Shown: piece by piece, positions 24,000-29,841 of the stretch
How positions within the stretch are numbered: position 1 is the stretch's first letter
Layout of the letters: each line of letters starts with the position of its first letter
NCBI RefSeq assembly: GCF_002127585.1
Contig: NZ_NEGZ01000025.1
Location: 1 to 64,000 of the forward strand
Reading direction: 5' to 3'
DNA from: Janthinobacterium sp. GW458P
GTDB lineage: Bacteria; Pseudomonadota; Gammaproteobacteria; Burkholderiales; Burkholderiaceae_D
DNA length: 64,000 nucleotides
Program-made: the position numbers and the translations under genes
The notes under the pieces: generated by a model
What the model saw: only the letters and a program-made list of their open reading frames with translations
Database searches by the model: none
What the model was told of the DNA's origin: nothing

Positions 24000-25988
24000 T
24001 CAGAACTGGTACTGCGCATTGGCCAGCCATGTGCGGCCCGCGCCGGGAAAGCCGTCGGCCAGCGCAAAATTGCGGTCACCGAGGTTCGCCACGCCCGCTT
24101 CCAGTGTCAAAGCCGGCAACGGGCGGTACACGGCCTTCAGGTTCAGCGTGGCAAAGCCGCCCAATTCCAGCGTATTCGAGACCCAGCGTCCGCTGTTCGC
24201 TTCAGCGATGGCCACCACGTCGACCTGGCGCGCCGCGTGCAGCACGGCATGCGCCGTCAGCTTGTGGCGCGGCACGTCCGTCAGGCGCGTGGCGCGGTCG
24301 CTGACATTTTTCATGTCCGTGTACGTGTAATTGCCGCCGACCTCCAGCCAGGCGCCGGCGCGGCCACGCAAACCCAGCTCCACGCCGCTGATATGCGCCC
24401 TGCCCACGTTCTGCATCTGCGCACGCACGCCAGAAACATTCGCCACGCTCTGAATCTTGTCCTTCACGTCGCTGTAGAACAGCGCCGCTTCCAGGCTGGC
24501 GCCCTGCACGTTTCCCTGATACCCAAGCTCATAGTTCATCGCCTCTTCCGCGCGCAAGGCCGGGTTTTCGATATACGTGCCCAGGCGCTGCGAGTAGCGG
24601 TCCTTCAGGGTCGGCAGACGCGACTTGCGCGCCACGGTGGCGTACACGCGCGAGTCAAGACCAGTCTTGTGGAACAATCCCGCCTGCAGGTCGGTGGCCG
24701 ACTGATTGCCGGGCAAGGTATAGGCATTGCCGGCGCTGTAGACGGTGTCCGGGCGAAGCGCGTTGCGCGAGGCGCCCAGCGACAGTTCCGTCGCCGCATT
24801 GAGGGCGATGCTGTCTTCCGCGCCCAGGGTCCACAGCGCATCCTTGTACCAGGTGTTGCGCACGCCCCTGGCGTCGAGTTCCTGGTGCTCGTCGGCCTTG
24901 TAGCTGGCGACAAAGCGCAGGCTGTGCGCGGCCAGGCGGAACGATTCGAGTTCCACCGCGCCGCCATTCGTGCGGTCGTTGTAGATGCTGCGCCCGCCGC
25001 TGACGCTGCCCTGGCCGCTGGTCTTGATGGTGCTGTAGCTGCCATTGGTGAACGAGGTGATTTCATTGTCGTAGCTGTCGTGGTAAAGGCGCAGTTTCAG
25101 GCGTTCCTGCTGGCCCAGGCGCGTCTGCGAGACGAAATACACGCTTTCCTTGTTCCAGTACGGCCATTGCCAATAGCGGGCGCCGGCGGGATTCGTCGAT
25201 GGCGGCTGCCCCTTTTCGCCATGCTGCTTGTAGTAGCTGAAGGCATACTCGTCGCCGCCCGCCGGCGTGTAGCCCACCTTGAACGACAGTTTATGGTCCT
25301 TGCGATACGCGTTGTTGCGCATGCCGCCGTCTTCCGTGGCCGTGGGGCGGAAATCGGACGACATGGGGAAGCCGTCGCTGTCGATGTACGACACGCCCGC
25401 CTGCAGATACCACAAACCCTGGTTCGTGCCCACGTTCGCCGACACCTGGCGCTCGCTGCCGGAGCCGAAACCGACGGATACGTCGCCCTCCATCGGCGCG
25501 GACGGCTTGCGCGAGATCAGGTTGATGGCGCCGCCCAGGGTATTGGCGCCATACGCCACGGAGCTGTAGCCCTTGGCCACCTGGATGGCGGCCAGGTCGG
25601 CCGTCGTAAATCGGTTGAAGTCGACGTAGCCGTCATACGGCACGTAGACGGGAATGCCGTCGATGTACAGCGGCACCTGGCGCGCATCGAAGCCGCGTAG
25701 GGCGACGGTTTTCTCGTTGCGCGAATTGGTCGACAGCGACACGCCCGAGAGCAAATTCAAGGCGTCGCCCACGTTGTCGCGGTTAAAGCGGCGCATCTCG
25801 GCCCGGCTCACTTGCGAGGCCACCTGCTGCTCCATCTGGCCTGCCTGCTCCCGCTGGCCTACCACTGTCACCGTGCCCAGCACGAACGGCGCCGCCCCAT
25901 CCACCTCATCCTTGCCGCTTGTCTGCTGCGCCTGCGCCATTTGCGCCAGCGCCAGCATCACCGCGCCTGCCATTACCTGTTTCAACAT
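24000..25988 (-). CDS. TonB-dependent outer-membrane receptor, predicted molybdenum-responsive
   Basis: The 662-residue protein has a signal peptide (MLALAQMAQA), a TonB box-like VTVVGQ near residue 40, a plug domain (about 50-170, with RRFNRDNVGDALNLLSGV, ALRGFDARQVPLYIDGIPV and YGANTLGGAINLIS) and a beta-barrel ending in the sorting signal NAQYQF. It is shorter than most siderophore receptors, closer to vitamin B12 or small-ligand receptors. Its promoter is covered by a ModE-like operator and the next gene has a molybdopterin-domain fold. The ligand is inferred to be a molybdenum or tungsten species; a metal complex or molybdophore is also possible. Confidence 0.9.
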   Translation of the reverse strand: MLKQVMAGAVMLALAQMAQAQQTSGKDEVDGAAPFVLGTVTVVGQREQAGQMEQQVASQVSRAEMRRFNRDNVGDALNLLSGVSLSTNSRNEKTVALRGFDARQVPLYIDGIPVYVPYDGYVDFNRFTTADLAAIQVAKGYSSVAYGANTLGGAINLISRKPSAPMEGDVSVGFGSGSERQVSANVGTNQGLWYLQAGVSYIDSDGFPMSSDFRPTATEDGGMRNNAYRKDHKLSFKVGYTPAGGDEYAFSYYKQHGEKGQPPSTNPAGARYWQWPYWNKESVYFVSQTRLGQQERLKLRLYHDSYDNEITSFTNGSYSTIKTSGQGSVSGGRSIYNDRTNGGAVELESFRLAAHSLRFVASYKADEHQELDARGVRNTWYKDALWTLGAEDSIALNAATELSLGASRNALRPDTVYSAGNAYTLPGNQSATDLQAGLFHKTGLDSRVYATVARKSRLPTLKDRYSQRLGTYIENPALRAEEAMNYELGYQGNVQGASLEAALFYSDVKDKIQSVANVSGVRAQMQNVGRAHISGVELGLRGRAGAWLEVGGNYTYTDMKNVSDRATRLTDVPRHKLTAHAVLHAARQVDVVAIAEANSGRWVSNTLELGGFATLNLKAVYRPLPALTLEAGVANLGDRNFALADGFPGAGRTWLANAQYQF

Positions 25989-26006
25989 CGTCTTGATCTT
26001 TCCACT

Positions 26007-26034
26007 CTCGCTATATATCGTCTTATATAACGAT
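26007..26034 (-). promoter_or_regulatory. ModE-like operator 1 (proximal)
   Basis: On the plus strand CGCTATATA (26009-26017), a six-base spacer, and TATATAACGAT (26024-26034) form an inverted repeat. I recall the ModE consensus as ATCGNTATATA, six bases, TATATNNCGAT; only the outermost left bases differ. It overlaps the spacer and -10 of the candidate promoter for the TonB receptor, so bound ModE would repress. Confidence 0.7.
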
Positions 26035-26040
26035 ATTCAA
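26012..26040 (-). promoter_or_regulatory. Candidate promoter of the TonB receptor gene
   Basis: On the minus strand TTGAAT (26040-26035) and TATATA (26017-26012) are 17 bases apart, each with 4 of 6 matches. The start of transcription would be near 26005, giving a leader of about 17 bases before the ATG at 25988. Confidence 0.5.
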
Positions 26041-26074
26041 AAAAGCGGCCGCCTTGCGACAGCCGTTACCCAGC

Positions 26075-26102
26075 AGCGCAATATACAGACGTATATAGCG
26101 AT
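26075..26102. promoter_or_regulatory. ModE-like operator 2 (distal)
   Basis: A second half-site pair lies 68 bases from the first, centre to centre: CGCAATATA (26077-26085), six bases, TATATAGCGAT (26092-26102). The right half is the exact reverse complement of the ATCGCTATATA half-site. The left half matches at 9 of 11. It sits between the receptor and the divergent IclR-type gene. Confidence 0.6.
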
Positions 26103-26170
26103 GCTCAAGCGACAAGACCAAAAGCGTGCGTGCAAGTCAAATTTCAGGCCTTTTTCATGCATTGCAGCAT

Positions 26171-26231
26171 TTCGCTATGCGAACGAATGTTTCACAAAAC
26201 GATTGACACGCGGAATGGCGCTAGGCAAACT
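26171..26231 (+). promoter_or_regulatory. Promoter and palindrome in front of the IclR-type gene
   Basis: A perfect -35 TTGACA (26203-26208) is followed after 17 bases by CAAACT (26226-26231), a weak -10. Just upstream is a palindrome with arms TTCGC and GCGAA around TAT (26171-26183), a possible autoregulatory site for the IclR-type protein. Confidence 0.4.
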
Positions 26232-26251
26232 GGTTTCCAGGGAGTCAGCAA

Positions 26252-27088
26252 ATGAATGCAAATATGACAAATATTCAGGCCGCAGCAGATCCGGAAATCA
26301 TCGTCTTCAGCGACGACGACGAAGGCAAGGACCGCCAGTTCGTCAATGCGCTGGCGCGCGGACTGGAAGTGCTCCGGTGCTTCCGTCCCGGCGAAGTCTA
26401 TCTGTCGAACGCAGACATGGCCAAGCGCACGGCCATCCCGAAACCGACGATTTCGCGCCTCACCTACACCCTCACCAAACTCGGCTACCTGAACTACTCG
26501 GACAGCCTGGGCAAGTACCAGCTGGGCGCCGGCGTGCTGGCCCTCGGCTACCGCATGCTGTCGAACCTGGACGTGCGCAAGATGGCGCGCCCGCTGATGG
26601 AAGAACTGGCCGAGCATGCGCAGGCGTCCGTCTCGCTGGGCACGCGCGACCGCCTCAGCATGGTGTACGTGGAAACCTGCCGCAGCAGCGCCAACGTCAC
26701 CCTGCGCCTCGACGTCGGTTCGCGCATTCCCCTGATGACCACGGCCATGGGCAAAGCCCTGCTGTGCATCCTGCCGCAGGCCGAGCGCGACTACCTGATG
26801 GACCATGCGCGCGTGCACGAGACGGAACGCTGGCCGCGCATCAAAGCCGGCATCGAGCAAGGCTTCAAGGATTACCAGGACCGGGGCTTTTGCATCTCCG
26901 CCGGCGAATGGCAGAACGACGTGCATGCCGTGGGCGTGCCCATGCTGGGTGCCGACGGCGAACAGGTGATGGCCTTCAATTGCGGCGGCCCCGCCTTCCT
27001 GCTGTCGCGCGAAAAACTCGAATCCGACCTGGGTCCGCGCCTGGTGGCTCTGGTCAAGACAGTGGAAAAAAACCTGGGCCGCGGTTAG
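26252..27088 (+). CDS. IclR-family transcriptional regulator
   Basis: The 278-residue protein has an N-terminal winged helix (FVNALARGLEVLRCFRPGE, PTISRLTYTLTKLGYL) and a C-terminal IclR effector domain (about 110-275, with SRIPLMTTAMGKALL and GFKDYQDRGFCISAGEW). It is the first gene in a run with an acyl-CoA dehydrogenase, an acyl-CoA synthetase and a Liv-type transporter, so it most likely controls them. GGGAG lies 7 bases before the ATG. IclR proteins of this class commonly respond to aromatic or organic acids. Confidence 0.9.
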   Translation: MNANMTNIQAAADPEIIVFSDDDEGKDRQFVNALARGLEVLRCFRPGEVYLSNADMAKRTAIPKPTISRLTYTLTKLGYLNYSDSLGKYQLGAGVLALGYRMLSNLDVRKMARPLMEELAEHAQASVSLGTRDRLSMVYVETCRSSANVTLRLDVGSRIPLMTTAMGKALLCILPQAERDYLMDHARVHETERWPRIKAGIEQGFKDYQDRGFCISAGEWQNDVHAVGVPMLGADGEQVMAFNCGGPAFLLSREKLESDLGPRLVALVKTVEKNLGRG

Positions 27089-27139: not shown

Positions 27140-28294
27140 ATGATACGCGACGAAGAAACCCTGAACATCCTGCTCGACAGCATCGCCCGTTTCGTGCGCG
27201 AAGTGCTGGTGCCGAACGAGGCGCTGGTGGCCGAGACGGACACGATCCCGCCCGCCATCGTGGCGCAGATGCGCGAACTGGGCCTGTTCGGCCTGTCCAT
27301 TCCGGAAGCCTACGGCGGCCTGGAACTGAGCATGGAAGAGGAAGTGCGGGTCGCGTTCGAGATCGCCCGCACCTCGCCCGCCTTCCGCTCGCTGATCGGC
27401 ACGAACAACGGCATCGGCTCGCAAGGCATCGTCATCGACGGCACGGAAGCGCAAAAACAATACTATCTGCCCAAGCTGGCGGCCGGCGAGATCATCGGCT
27501 CGTTCGCCCTGACGGAAGCGGGATCGGGGTCCGATGCCGCCTCGCTGCGCACGACGGCCGTGCGCGATGGCGATTTTTACATCCTCAACGGCAGCAAGCG
27601 CTATATCACCAACGCGCCCGAAGCGAGCATTTTTACGGTCATGGCGCGCACGGATCCCGTCAAGCGCGGCGCCTCGGCCATTTCCGCCTTCATCGTGGAA
27701 AAGGATACGCCGGGCCTGTCGCTGGGCAAAATAGATAAAAAAATGGGCCAGCAAGGCGCGCATACCTGCGACGTCATCTTCGAAAATTGCAAGGTGCCGG
27801 CCGCGAACATCATCGGCGGCAAGGAAGGCGTGGGTTTTAAAACAGCCATGAAGGTGCTCGACAAGGGTCGCTTGCACATCGCCGCCGTCTGCGTGGGCGC
27901 GGCCGAGCGCATGCTGGCCGACGCCCTGGCCTACGCCATGGAGCGCCAGCAGTTCGGCCAGCCCATCGCCGAATTCCAGCTGATCCAGGCCATGCTGGCC
28001 GACAGCAAGGCCGAGATCTACGCGGCGCGCAGCATGGTGCTCGACGCGGCGCGCCGGCGCGACAACAAGGAAGACATCTCGACGGAAGCGTCGTGCTGCA
28101 AGCTGTTCGCCTCCGAAATGTGCGGCAGAGTCGCCGACCGCTCCGTGCAGATCCACGGCGGCGCCGGCTATATCAGCGAATACGCGGCCGAGCGCTTTTA
28201 CCGCGACGTGCGCCTGTTCCGCATCTATGAAGGCACGACGCAGATCCAGCAGATCGTCATCGCCCGCAACATGATCAAGGCAGCGCAAAAGTGA
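27140..28294 (+). CDS. Acyl-CoA dehydrogenase
   Basis: The 384-residue FAD flavoprotein introduces the alpha-beta double bond into an acyl-CoA. Motifs are ALTEAGSGSDAAS for FAD/substrate, KRYITNAPEA, QFGQPIAEFQ, QIHGGAGYISEY and FRIYEGTTQIQ. The last holds the catalytic base Glu364, placed as in short/medium-chain enzymes. Four bases overlap the next possible GTG, and the true start of the ligase lies 12 bases on. Substrate is not determined by sequence. Confidence 0.93.
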   Translation: MIRDEETLNILLDSIARFVREVLVPNEALVAETDTIPPAIVAQMRELGLFGLSIPEAYGGLELSMEEEVRVAFEIARTSPAFRSLIGTNNGIGSQGIVIDGTEAQKQYYLPKLAAGEIIGSFALTEAGSGSDAASLRTTAVRDGDFYILNGSKRYITNAPEASIFTVMARTDPVKRGASAISAFIVEKDTPGLSLGKIDKKMGQQGAHTCDVIFENCKVPAANIIGGKEGVGFKTAMKVLDKGRLHIAAVCVGAAERMLADALAYAMERQQFGQPIAEFQLIQAMLADSKAEIYAARSMVLDAARRRDNKEDISTEASCCKLFASEMCGRVADRSVQIHGGAGYISEYAAERFYRDVRLFRIYEGTTQIQQIVIARNMIKAAQK

Positions 28295-28305
28295 AGGAGG
28301 ACGCG

Positions 28306-29841
28306 ATGGACATTCCCGCCCTGCTGGCCCACTTGCCGGCGCGCCTGTCGGCCATTCCCGCCCACTGGGCGGCGCGCGCGCCCGATGGGCCCGCGCTGCA
28401 TGAGGGCGGCCGCAGCTGGACTTACGCCCAGCTGCAGCACAGTGTGGAACATGCGGCACAGTTGTTGCGCCGGCTGCACGTGCGCGCCGGCGACCGCCTG
28501 ATGGTGGTGGGCGAGAACTGCGCGCTGCAGGTGGCGCTGATTTTTGCCGCCGCCAGCATCGACGCGTGGATCGTCAACGTCAATGCGCGGCTGTCGGCGC
28601 GCGAGATCGACACCATCGCCACGCACAGTTCCGCGCGGCGGCTGCTGTTCCTGGCCGGCGCCTCGCCGGAAGCGGCCACCCATGCCGCACGCCTGGGTGC
28701 CGCCGCCCCCTTCACCGTCGACGGCATGGGCGAGCTGCTGGCGGGCGACTTGAACGAGGCGGCCATGGCGGAAGACACGGTGCCCGGCAACGAACAGGTG
28801 GCCGCGCTGATCTACACGACAGGCACCACCGGGCAGTCGAAGGGCGTGATGCTCACGCACCGCAACCTGCTGTTCATCGCCGCCGTCTCCAGCACCCTGC
28901 GCGGTTTGAGCAGCACCGACCGCGCCTACGGCGTGCTGCCGATTTCCCACGTGTACGGCCTGGCCTCGGTGGCCCTGGGCACCCTGTATGCGGGCGCCGC
29001 GCTATACCTGGTGCCGCGCTTTTCCGTCGACGGCTTGCTGGCCGCACTGAAAGACGACGGCTTGACCATCGTGCAAGGCGTGCCCGCCATGTATGCCAAG
29101 CTGCTGCAAACCCTGGGCGGCGCCGATACGCCGCTGGCCACGCGGCTGCGCTTTGCGTATGCGGGCGGATCGCCGCTGGCGCCGTCGCTCAAGCGCGACG
29201 TGGAAAAGCTGCTGGGCACCGCACTGCACAATGGCTACGGCATGACGGAAAGCGCCCCCACCATCAGCCAGACGCGCCTGGAAACGCCGCGCCTTGACGA
29301 TTCCGTCGGCACGCCGATTCCGGGCGTGCAAGTGCGCGTGGTGGACGTGGCCGGCAAGGACGTGACGCCGGGCGAGCCCGGGGAATTATGGATACGCGGA
29401 CCGAACGTCATGGCCGGCTATTACCGCGAACCGGCCATGACGGCGGCCACCATGCGCGACGGCGGCTGGCTCAACACGGGCGACATGGCCCGCCAGGAGC
29501 CTGACGGCGCCCTGTTCATCGTCGGCCGCACCAAGGAACTGATCATCCGCTCCGGCTTCAATGTGTATCCGCTGGAAGTGGAAACGGCGCTCAACGCCCA
29601 CCCCTCCGTGGTGCAGTCGGCCGTCGTCGGCCGCAGCCTGGCCGACGGCAACGAGGACGTCATCGCTTATGTGGAACTGGACCCGCAGCGCCCCGTGACG
29701 GTGCAGGCCTTGCACGATTACCTGGCGCAGACCCTGTCGCCGTACAAGTGCCCGTCCGCCATCCTCGTCATGGAAGCGCTGCCGGCTGCCGCCACGGGCA
29801 AGATCCTGAAGGGGCAATTGCGGCAGATGGCACAGAACTAG
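28306..29841 (+). CDS. Acyl-CoA synthetase (AMP-forming)
   Basis: The 511-residue class I adenylate-forming ligase activates a carboxylic acid to its CoA thioester. Motifs are YTTGTTGQSKGVMLTH (P-loop-like), NGYGMTESAPT (A5), GELWIRGPNVMAGYY, WLNTGDMARQEPDG (A7), IIRSGFNVYPLEVE (hinge) and the C-terminal TGKILKGQL with the catalytic Lys. The start at 28306 is chosen for AAGGAGG just upstream; a GTG at 28291 overlaps the previous stop. It probably supplies the dehydrogenase next to it. Confidence 0.93.
   Translation: MDIPALLAHLPARLSAIPAHWAARAPDGPALHEGGRSWTYAQLQHSVEHAAQLLRRLHVRAGDRLMVVGENCALQVALIFAAASIDAWIVNVNARLSAREIDTIATHSSARRLLFLAGASPEAATHAARLGAAAPFTVDGMGELLAGDLNEAAMAEDTVPGNEQVAALIYTTGTTGQSKGVMLTHRNLLFIAAVSSTLRGLSSTDRAYGVLPISHVYGLASVALGTLYAGAALYLVPRFSVDGLLAALKDDGLTIVQGVPAMYAKLLQTLGGADTPLATRLRFAYAGGSPLAPSLKRDVEKLLGTALHNGYGMTESAPTISQTRLETPRLDDSVGTPIPGVQVRVVDVAGKDVTPGEPGELWIRGPNVMAGYYREPAMTAATMRDGGWLNTGDMARQEPDGALFIVGRTKELIIRSGFNVYPLEVETALNAHPSVVQSAVVGRSLADGNEDVIAYVELDPQRPVTVQALHDYLAQTLSPYKCPSAILVMEALPAAATGKILKGQLRQMAQN

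Follow-up and report, generated by a model that had tools for sequence, protein, structure and literature searches.

Two ModE-type operators precede a TonB-dependent receptor gene of Janthinobacterium and suggest an outer-membrane route for molybdenum

How does molybdenum cross the outer membrane of a proteobacterium? Porin diffusion is the supposed route for molybdate according to a review (PMC8264917). A locus of Janthinobacterium sp. GW458P raises the question of whether a dedicated route exists as well. The window, which is the whole stretch of 64,000 nucleotides analysed here (positions 1 to 64,000 of contig NZ_NEGZ01000025.1), contains a gene for a TonB-dependent receptor (TBDR) that is preceded by two ModE-type operators and followed by a gene with a PF00174 domain (Table 1). 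An initial annotation of this DNA had read the receptor as a ModE-controlled protein, and sequence evidence from the operators, the orthologs, the modE gene and the gene neighbourhood supports that reading. We propose that the receptor and its PF00174 partner very probably form an operon under ModE repression that imports a molybdenum (or tungsten) species via TonB when molybdate is scarce.

Table 1. Coordinates of the receptor operon, its control elements and neighbouring genes in the window
Feature	Position	Strand	Description
Proximal ModE-type operator, ATCGTTATATA-N6-TATATAGCGAG	26007..26034	.	19/20 consensus letters
Distal ModE-type operator, ATCGCTATATA-N6-TATATTGCGCT	26075..26102	.	18/20 consensus letters
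Candidate sigma-70 promoter TTGAAT-17-TATATA	26012..26040	-	Predicted from sequence; TTGAAT 26040-26035, TATATA 26017-26012
TonB-dependent receptor, 662 aa	24000..25988	-	Plug PF07715 and barrel PF00593 (Pfam), AlphaFold model
PF00174 partner, sulfite-oxidase fold, probably periplasmic, 184 aa	23430..23984	-	Pfam; second gene of the probable operon
IclR gene, divergent	26252		Pfam
AMP-binding enzyme	28291-29841		Pfam scan of ten proteins around the operon

The receptor is assigned to the TBDR class by its plug (E-value 1.8e-20) and barrel (1.2e-29) domains and by an AlphaFold model (mean predicted local distance difference test score, pLDDT, 86.2) whose closest solved folds are BtuB, PhuR, PirA, Cir and OprC. 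Its N-terminus resembles a signal peptide, as judged by eye, and its closest relatives in named genomes are other Janthinobacterium receptors with 88-94% identity. The receptor stop codon lies 15 bases from the start of the PF00174 gene on the minus strand, and thus the two genes probably constitute an operon.

Why should this operon belong to the ModE regulon? The ModE consensus, ATCGnTATATA-N6-TATATAnCGAT as quoted in an excerpt of PMC545781, provides 20 letters against which sites can be scored. The two operators are 68 bases apart, start to start, and the proximal palindrome spans exactly the 17-base spacer and the -10 element of the candidate promoter, so that the coordinates bear out the inverted repeat claimed for this position. 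The next-best match in the window scores 13. Across the 6.28-Mb host genome, only three places lie within 3 mismatches, namely both receptor operators and a site upstream of modABCE. The annotation had suggested ranking the receptor sites against modABC; both (19 and 18) stand above the modABC site (17). Exact matches to the 16-letter core CGNTATATAN6TATATNNCG are confined to the same three places. When as many as 3 mismatches are allowed, the genome contains fewer matches to the core than to its control (17+21 vs 38+40), and weak matches therefore mean nothing.

The regulator itself is encoded in the same genome. A modA-modB-modC-modE operon lies behind the 17/20 operator, which compares with 16/20 for the Escherichia coli K-12 modA operator on the same scale, and the modE gene that the annotation presupposed is present at full length. 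The host ModE comprises a helix-turn-helix (HTH) domain and two Mop/TOBE domains. It scores 104 bits against TIGR00637 (ModE_repress; cut-off 98.5) and 187 bits against the equivalog model NF007957, which is below the cut-off of 369. Over the first 60 aligned residues, it is identical to K-12 ModE at 36 positions (60%), and it keeps the motifs SYKxAWDAI (SYKAAWDAID for SYKSAWDAIN in K-12) and TGGKGGGG. The ModC protein of the operon (L027:4132-4842) is short, with 236 residues, no TOBE match and a score under the modC cut-off. A separate 198-residue frame elsewhere in the genome (L028:1971-2564) contains one Mop/TOBE domain and no HTH match. A search for NifQ gave no match in the host genome and none in 14 control genomes either.

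Are the operators maintained in other members of the genus? The receptor was found at E 1e-150 in 27 of 40 Janthinobacterium genomes, the host included. Upstream of each of the 27 receptor genes, one or more ModE-like sites scoring 15/20 or higher lie no farther away than about 250 bases, and the palindromes are thus kept in the orthologs, as the annotation required; the sites score 16 and 17 in genome G544 and 15 and 15 in G514. In an alignment of 14 Janthinobacterium upstream regions, invariant columns make up 32/40 of the operator arms, 4/12 of the spacers and 35/110 of the other positions. Conservation in these regions does not extend to the -35 hexamer TTGAAT. A conserved helical phase between the operators was considered and dropped: 14 loci gave spacings of 68-70 (12 loci) and 80 (2 loci), but the wider genus set varied. 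In 22 genus genomes for which both sites are recorded, the operators are spaced at 65 (1), 68-70 (16), 77 (2) and 80 (3), and owing to this spread we do not make a claim about phase. No Rfam family reaches its gathering threshold in 25900-26300, where an RNA element over the leader was sought. In a few Janthinobacterium genomes, the receptor frame is broken by a stop codon (L071:8001-8909; G517:C77; G518:C1).

Four of the 13 genus genomes without the receptor were examined, each picked because of a ModE site. In three of them (G533, G534 and G539), a PF00174 gene adjoins sites of 17, 17 and 19, and in the fourth (G513), a site of 19 precedes a different receptor.

In named genomes, relatives of the receptor were picked by protein similarity alone, as the best 80 of at least 521, and they come mostly from Beta- and Gammaproteobacteria. 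These relatives are not independent events, given that they are related to one another and that 13 are near-identical Janthinobacterium receptors. A site of at least 15/20 occurs within 600 bases upstream in 58 of the 80, of at least 16 in 46 and of at least 17 in 35. The corresponding numbers of loci at the 15-letter level in three controls average 0.26 (up to 300 permuted half-sites; maximum 15), 0.14 (50 upstream shuffles; maximum 2) and 0.75 (20 draws of random 600-base stretches from the same loci; maximum 3). The interrupted frame L071 is included in these site counts and excluded from the receptor tree, which carries no argument here, and from the alignments A2 (48 sequences) and A3 (32 sequences), whose members were chosen for spread.

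These figures bear on the view that the palindromes are AT-rich chance sequences or the sites of another regulator, such as the IclR protein encoded divergently from the receptor. A backward-read consensus yields 1 forward and 1 reverse match in the whole genome at up to 3 mismatches, which puts the chance expectation at this depth near one match per genome, and the IclR gene is close at hand. However, of the three best ModE sites in the genome, two are neighbours at the receptor, like sites precede relatives with quite different neighbours, and all three controls fall far below 58/80. On the genome-wide ranking and the controls, we reject chance palindromes, and we regard this view as a whole as extremely improbable. 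Between the operators and the IclR gene, a block at 26170-26201, TTCGCTATGCGAACGAATGTTTCACAAAACG, shows strong conservation across the 14 genus sequences of the alignment and is perhaps the IclR-type regulator's own site.

What do the genes around these receptors reveal about the imported species? Relatives of the receptor are found within or next to mod genes, nifQ, modD or MolB-like transporters, as in L047 with the gene order modA-modB-modC-receptor-PF00174-nifQ-modE. Using bit thresholds that we set ourselves (e.g. 120 for ModE and 100 for ModB), we detected a full-length ModE in 29 of the 80 fetched loci, a ModB-like protein in 25 (at 34-49% identity, a class that may include other permeases), either of them in 37 and NifQ in 8. 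Several loci end at contig ends, and in that respect the counts are lower bounds. Ten ModE frames, nine from the 80 loci and one from L053, were scanned; every one of them has matches to both the ModE_repress and the Mop model, with the cut-off of ModE_repress passed by six and that of NF007957 by none. All four NifQ proteins scanned, out of the eight, pass their cut-off. The nifQ gene (PF04891) lies in or adjoins the receptor loci L047 (8487-9119), L078, L104, L106 and L112, where NifQ may be a molybdenum carrier outside nitrogen fixation.

Three modules accompany the receptor and are almost exclusive of each other. A PF00174 gene is located directly downstream of the receptor in 43 of the 80 loci. 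Counted by nearby module, PF00174 is the only one in 43 loci, a MolB-like permease in 16, and a substrate-binding protein (SBP) of the SBP_bac_6 family and/or a di-haem oxidoreductase in 13; PF00174 and SBP_bac_6/di-haem proteins occur together once, and 7 loci have none of the three. Another view is that ModE control is real and that the receptor serves another nutrient, e.g. iron or copper for molybdoenzymes or for their molybdenum-free replacements. TBDRs of similar fold do carry copper and heme, and the 13 receptors with SBP_bac_6 or di-haem partners would suit such a role. Nonetheless, the repeated linkage to modABC, modE, nifQ and MolB-like genes argues for molybdenum, and a different nutrient is unlikely.

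The PF00174 partner provides a further clue. Its AlphaFold model (pLDDT 84.8) resembles in fold the SUOX enzymes and PruR, a small protein that binds pterin (TM scores of 0.65-0.72 on the target) and that it matches in size, and both Pfam and the model place it in the PF00174 domain family and SUOX fold. The mature partner from the window contains no cysteine and thus lacks the expected molybdenum-ligand cysteine of a sulfite-oxidase-type molybdoenzyme. This residue, at the position that would be the ligand according to the motif, is kept in 22 of 32 aligned partners and absent from 9 of the other 31 besides the window protein. Because the window protein is devoid of the putative ligand, binding or hand-over of the imported species is a likelier role for it than catalysis. 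The PruR-like fold and the loss of the cysteine in these ten proteins would also fit a receptor that imports a pterin or molybdopterin-like compound, which the partner would bind in the periplasm. We consider a pterin quite unlikely, since most aligned partners retain the cysteine, the partner is replaced in other relatives by an ABC (ATP-binding cassette) importer or an SBP/di-haem protein, and the linkage is to molybdate transport.

More remote relatives occur on plasmids. Of 197 plasmid records that contain one, nine were examined, and a candidate site was found in seven, three of them with a wider gap. In a Pseudomonas aeruginosa record, a receptor of 38% identity and a PF00174 gene stand beside moaA-narIJHG, and 12 bases separate the end of a 17/20 site from the receptor start. 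An E. coli record (33% identity) contains a six-gene operon for a binding protein, a permease, an ATPase, a methyltransferase, ModD and the receptor, and its 18/20 site ends 22 bases before the first gene. In the Methylorubrum and Shinella records, 17/20 sites precede the receptor; one Bartonella and two Azospirillum records carry 7-gap sites that score 16, upstream of the receptor or of its operon, and no score above 14 was obtained for Sphingomonas and Paracoccus. Among seven genomes with receptors of 39-46% identity (L049-L055), L049-L051 (about 45% identity) gave no site at one mismatch; rescoring yielded two sites before the receptor of L051, one of 16 and one of 17 with a 7-gap, and a weak 14 before that of L050. 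L053 (16) and L054 (15) likewise have a site close to the receptor start.

The permease of the E. coli operon has HI1471 as its best match in the PDB (E 1.6e-64), and the binding protein has 4pag as its top match (1e-25) and only a weak match to HI1472 (1.2e-7). The chromosome of E. coli ATCC 25922 (L145:3117-9543) holds the same operon with its ModE site and MolB-like permease; it is annotated as an iron ABC transporter, a methyltransferase, ModD and a TonB receptor and may be a system for molybdenum or tungsten. Of 5426 complete genomes, 2094 contain at least 80% of this 6.6-kb stretch.

A second receptor family has the same Pfam domains as the first, and the best local match between the two covers only 65 residues at 23% identity. 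Two Janthinobacterium members, found via their sites (L146:2846-4978 and L150:5058-7208), have ModE sites of 19 and 17 and an SBP_bac_11 (ModA-like) binding protein downstream. Five plasmid records were then picked by protein similarity alone; three (two Pantoea and one Chimaeribacter) show sites of 16-19, and the Methylocystis and Polymorphobacter records show none. A substrate-binding-protein gene adjoins the receptor in all seven loci. A search of 145 genomes from the family of the host found no member at E 1e-120; relatives lie instead on plasmid records.

Does the receptor take up the free oxyanion or a complex? In a variant of our proposal, the substrate would be a molybdenum chelate, such as a catechol or siderophore-like complex. 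Siderophore receptors and BtuB are among the closest folds, the second-family receptors are annotated as siderophore receptors, and the E. coli operon includes a methyltransferase and ModD. FecCD/MolB-type importers, with which 16 of the 80 relatives are paired, usually carry chelates. However, more relatives (43/80) are paired with PF00174, some receptors lie within ModABC operons, ModABC carries the oxyanion, and no obvious chelator synthase occurs among the ten Pfam-scanned proteins around the operon, though an AMP-binding enzyme does. A chelate is a serious possibility that falls short of being the expected one.

How would ModE govern molybdenum import at this locus? When molybdate is plentiful, molybdenum-bound ModE would occupy the proximal site across the -10 element and the distal site and would thus repress the operon. 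Upon molybdate scarcity, ModE would release the DNA, allowing the TBDR to be produced. The receptor would then draw the molybdenum (or tungsten) species through the outer membrane. In the periplasm, the PF00174 partner may assist by holding, releasing or converting this species, and the passage of molybdate through the inner membrane would fall to ModABC, whose genes lie elsewhere behind a like operator. Molybdenum-dependent repression is argued from the operator position over the -10 element, as for modABC.

Several observations weigh against this proposal. ModE can also activate genes, and the sign of control therefore rests on the operator position. The receptor fold is uninformative on the ligand, given that its nearest neighbours carry cobalamin, heme, copper or siderophores. 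The receptor is absent from 13 of the 40 genus genomes. Among the 80 relatives, 22 have no site of at least 15 and 15 have none of at least 14 within 600 bases; L118, L122, L127 and L142, for example, lack both a 15-letter site and any gene like modE or modB. Some of the relatives without a site in this range have one slightly farther out or are themselves located among mod genes. Among the more remote loci, no convincing site was found in L049, L052, L055, L059 and L060.

The proposed system shares parts with several known ones. It has in common with the K-12 modABC regulon the operator consensus, the domain architecture of ModE and a modABCE operon with a like site, and it differs in that control here extends to an outer-membrane TBDR and a PF00174 partner. 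OprC, a copper TonB-dependent transporter, is a precedent for uptake of a metal ion by a TBDR. It shares the plug-barrel fold (TM score 0.74-0.78 on the query) and differs in its 16-17% identity in the structural alignment, its regulator and its metal, which is predicted to be another one here. BtuB and the siderophore TBDRs likewise share domains and fold at low identity, whereas the present receptor has ModE-type operators and mod linkage. MolBCA of Haemophilus influenzae (HI1470-1472) imports molybdate and tungstate; it resembles the E. coli relative in the permease and, weakly, in the binding protein, and it is an inner-membrane importer only, which the window operon lacks. PruR and the SUOX-fold enzymes have the fold of the partner, from which the window protein departs in its 184-residue length and its missing putative cysteine.

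ModE regulons and TBDRs are each known; no description of their combination as an outer-membrane molybdenum route was found in the open-access literature that we searched; regulon databases (RegPrecise) lay outside the search, and an earlier prediction is possible. According to PMC2700814, the predicted ModE regulon of Geobacter includes "several transport systems". The nearest published idea found is the type VI secretion system T6SS-ModA-IcmP of P. aeruginosa, which is also an outer-membrane route for molybdate (PMC8602904, PMC11734730).

We consider it likely, with somewhat less assurance than for the window operon itself, that a TonB-dependent molybdenum or tungsten route under ModE is widespread in proteobacteria. 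It would consist of one receptor clade with one of three interchangeable modules (PF00174; a MolB-type ABC importer; an SBP with a di-haem oxidoreductase), joined by a second, remotely related receptor family. The locus suggests that molybdenum entry is not always mere leakage through pores. If this is true, many bacteria would spend energy to pull scarce molybdenum through the outer membrane, which would alter the view of molybdenum limitation in nitrate respiration, nitrogen fixation and other molybdoenzyme processes. It would also provide a function for receptors and 'iron' transporters that are now annotated as siderophore systems, including the 6.6-kb stretch of E. coli.
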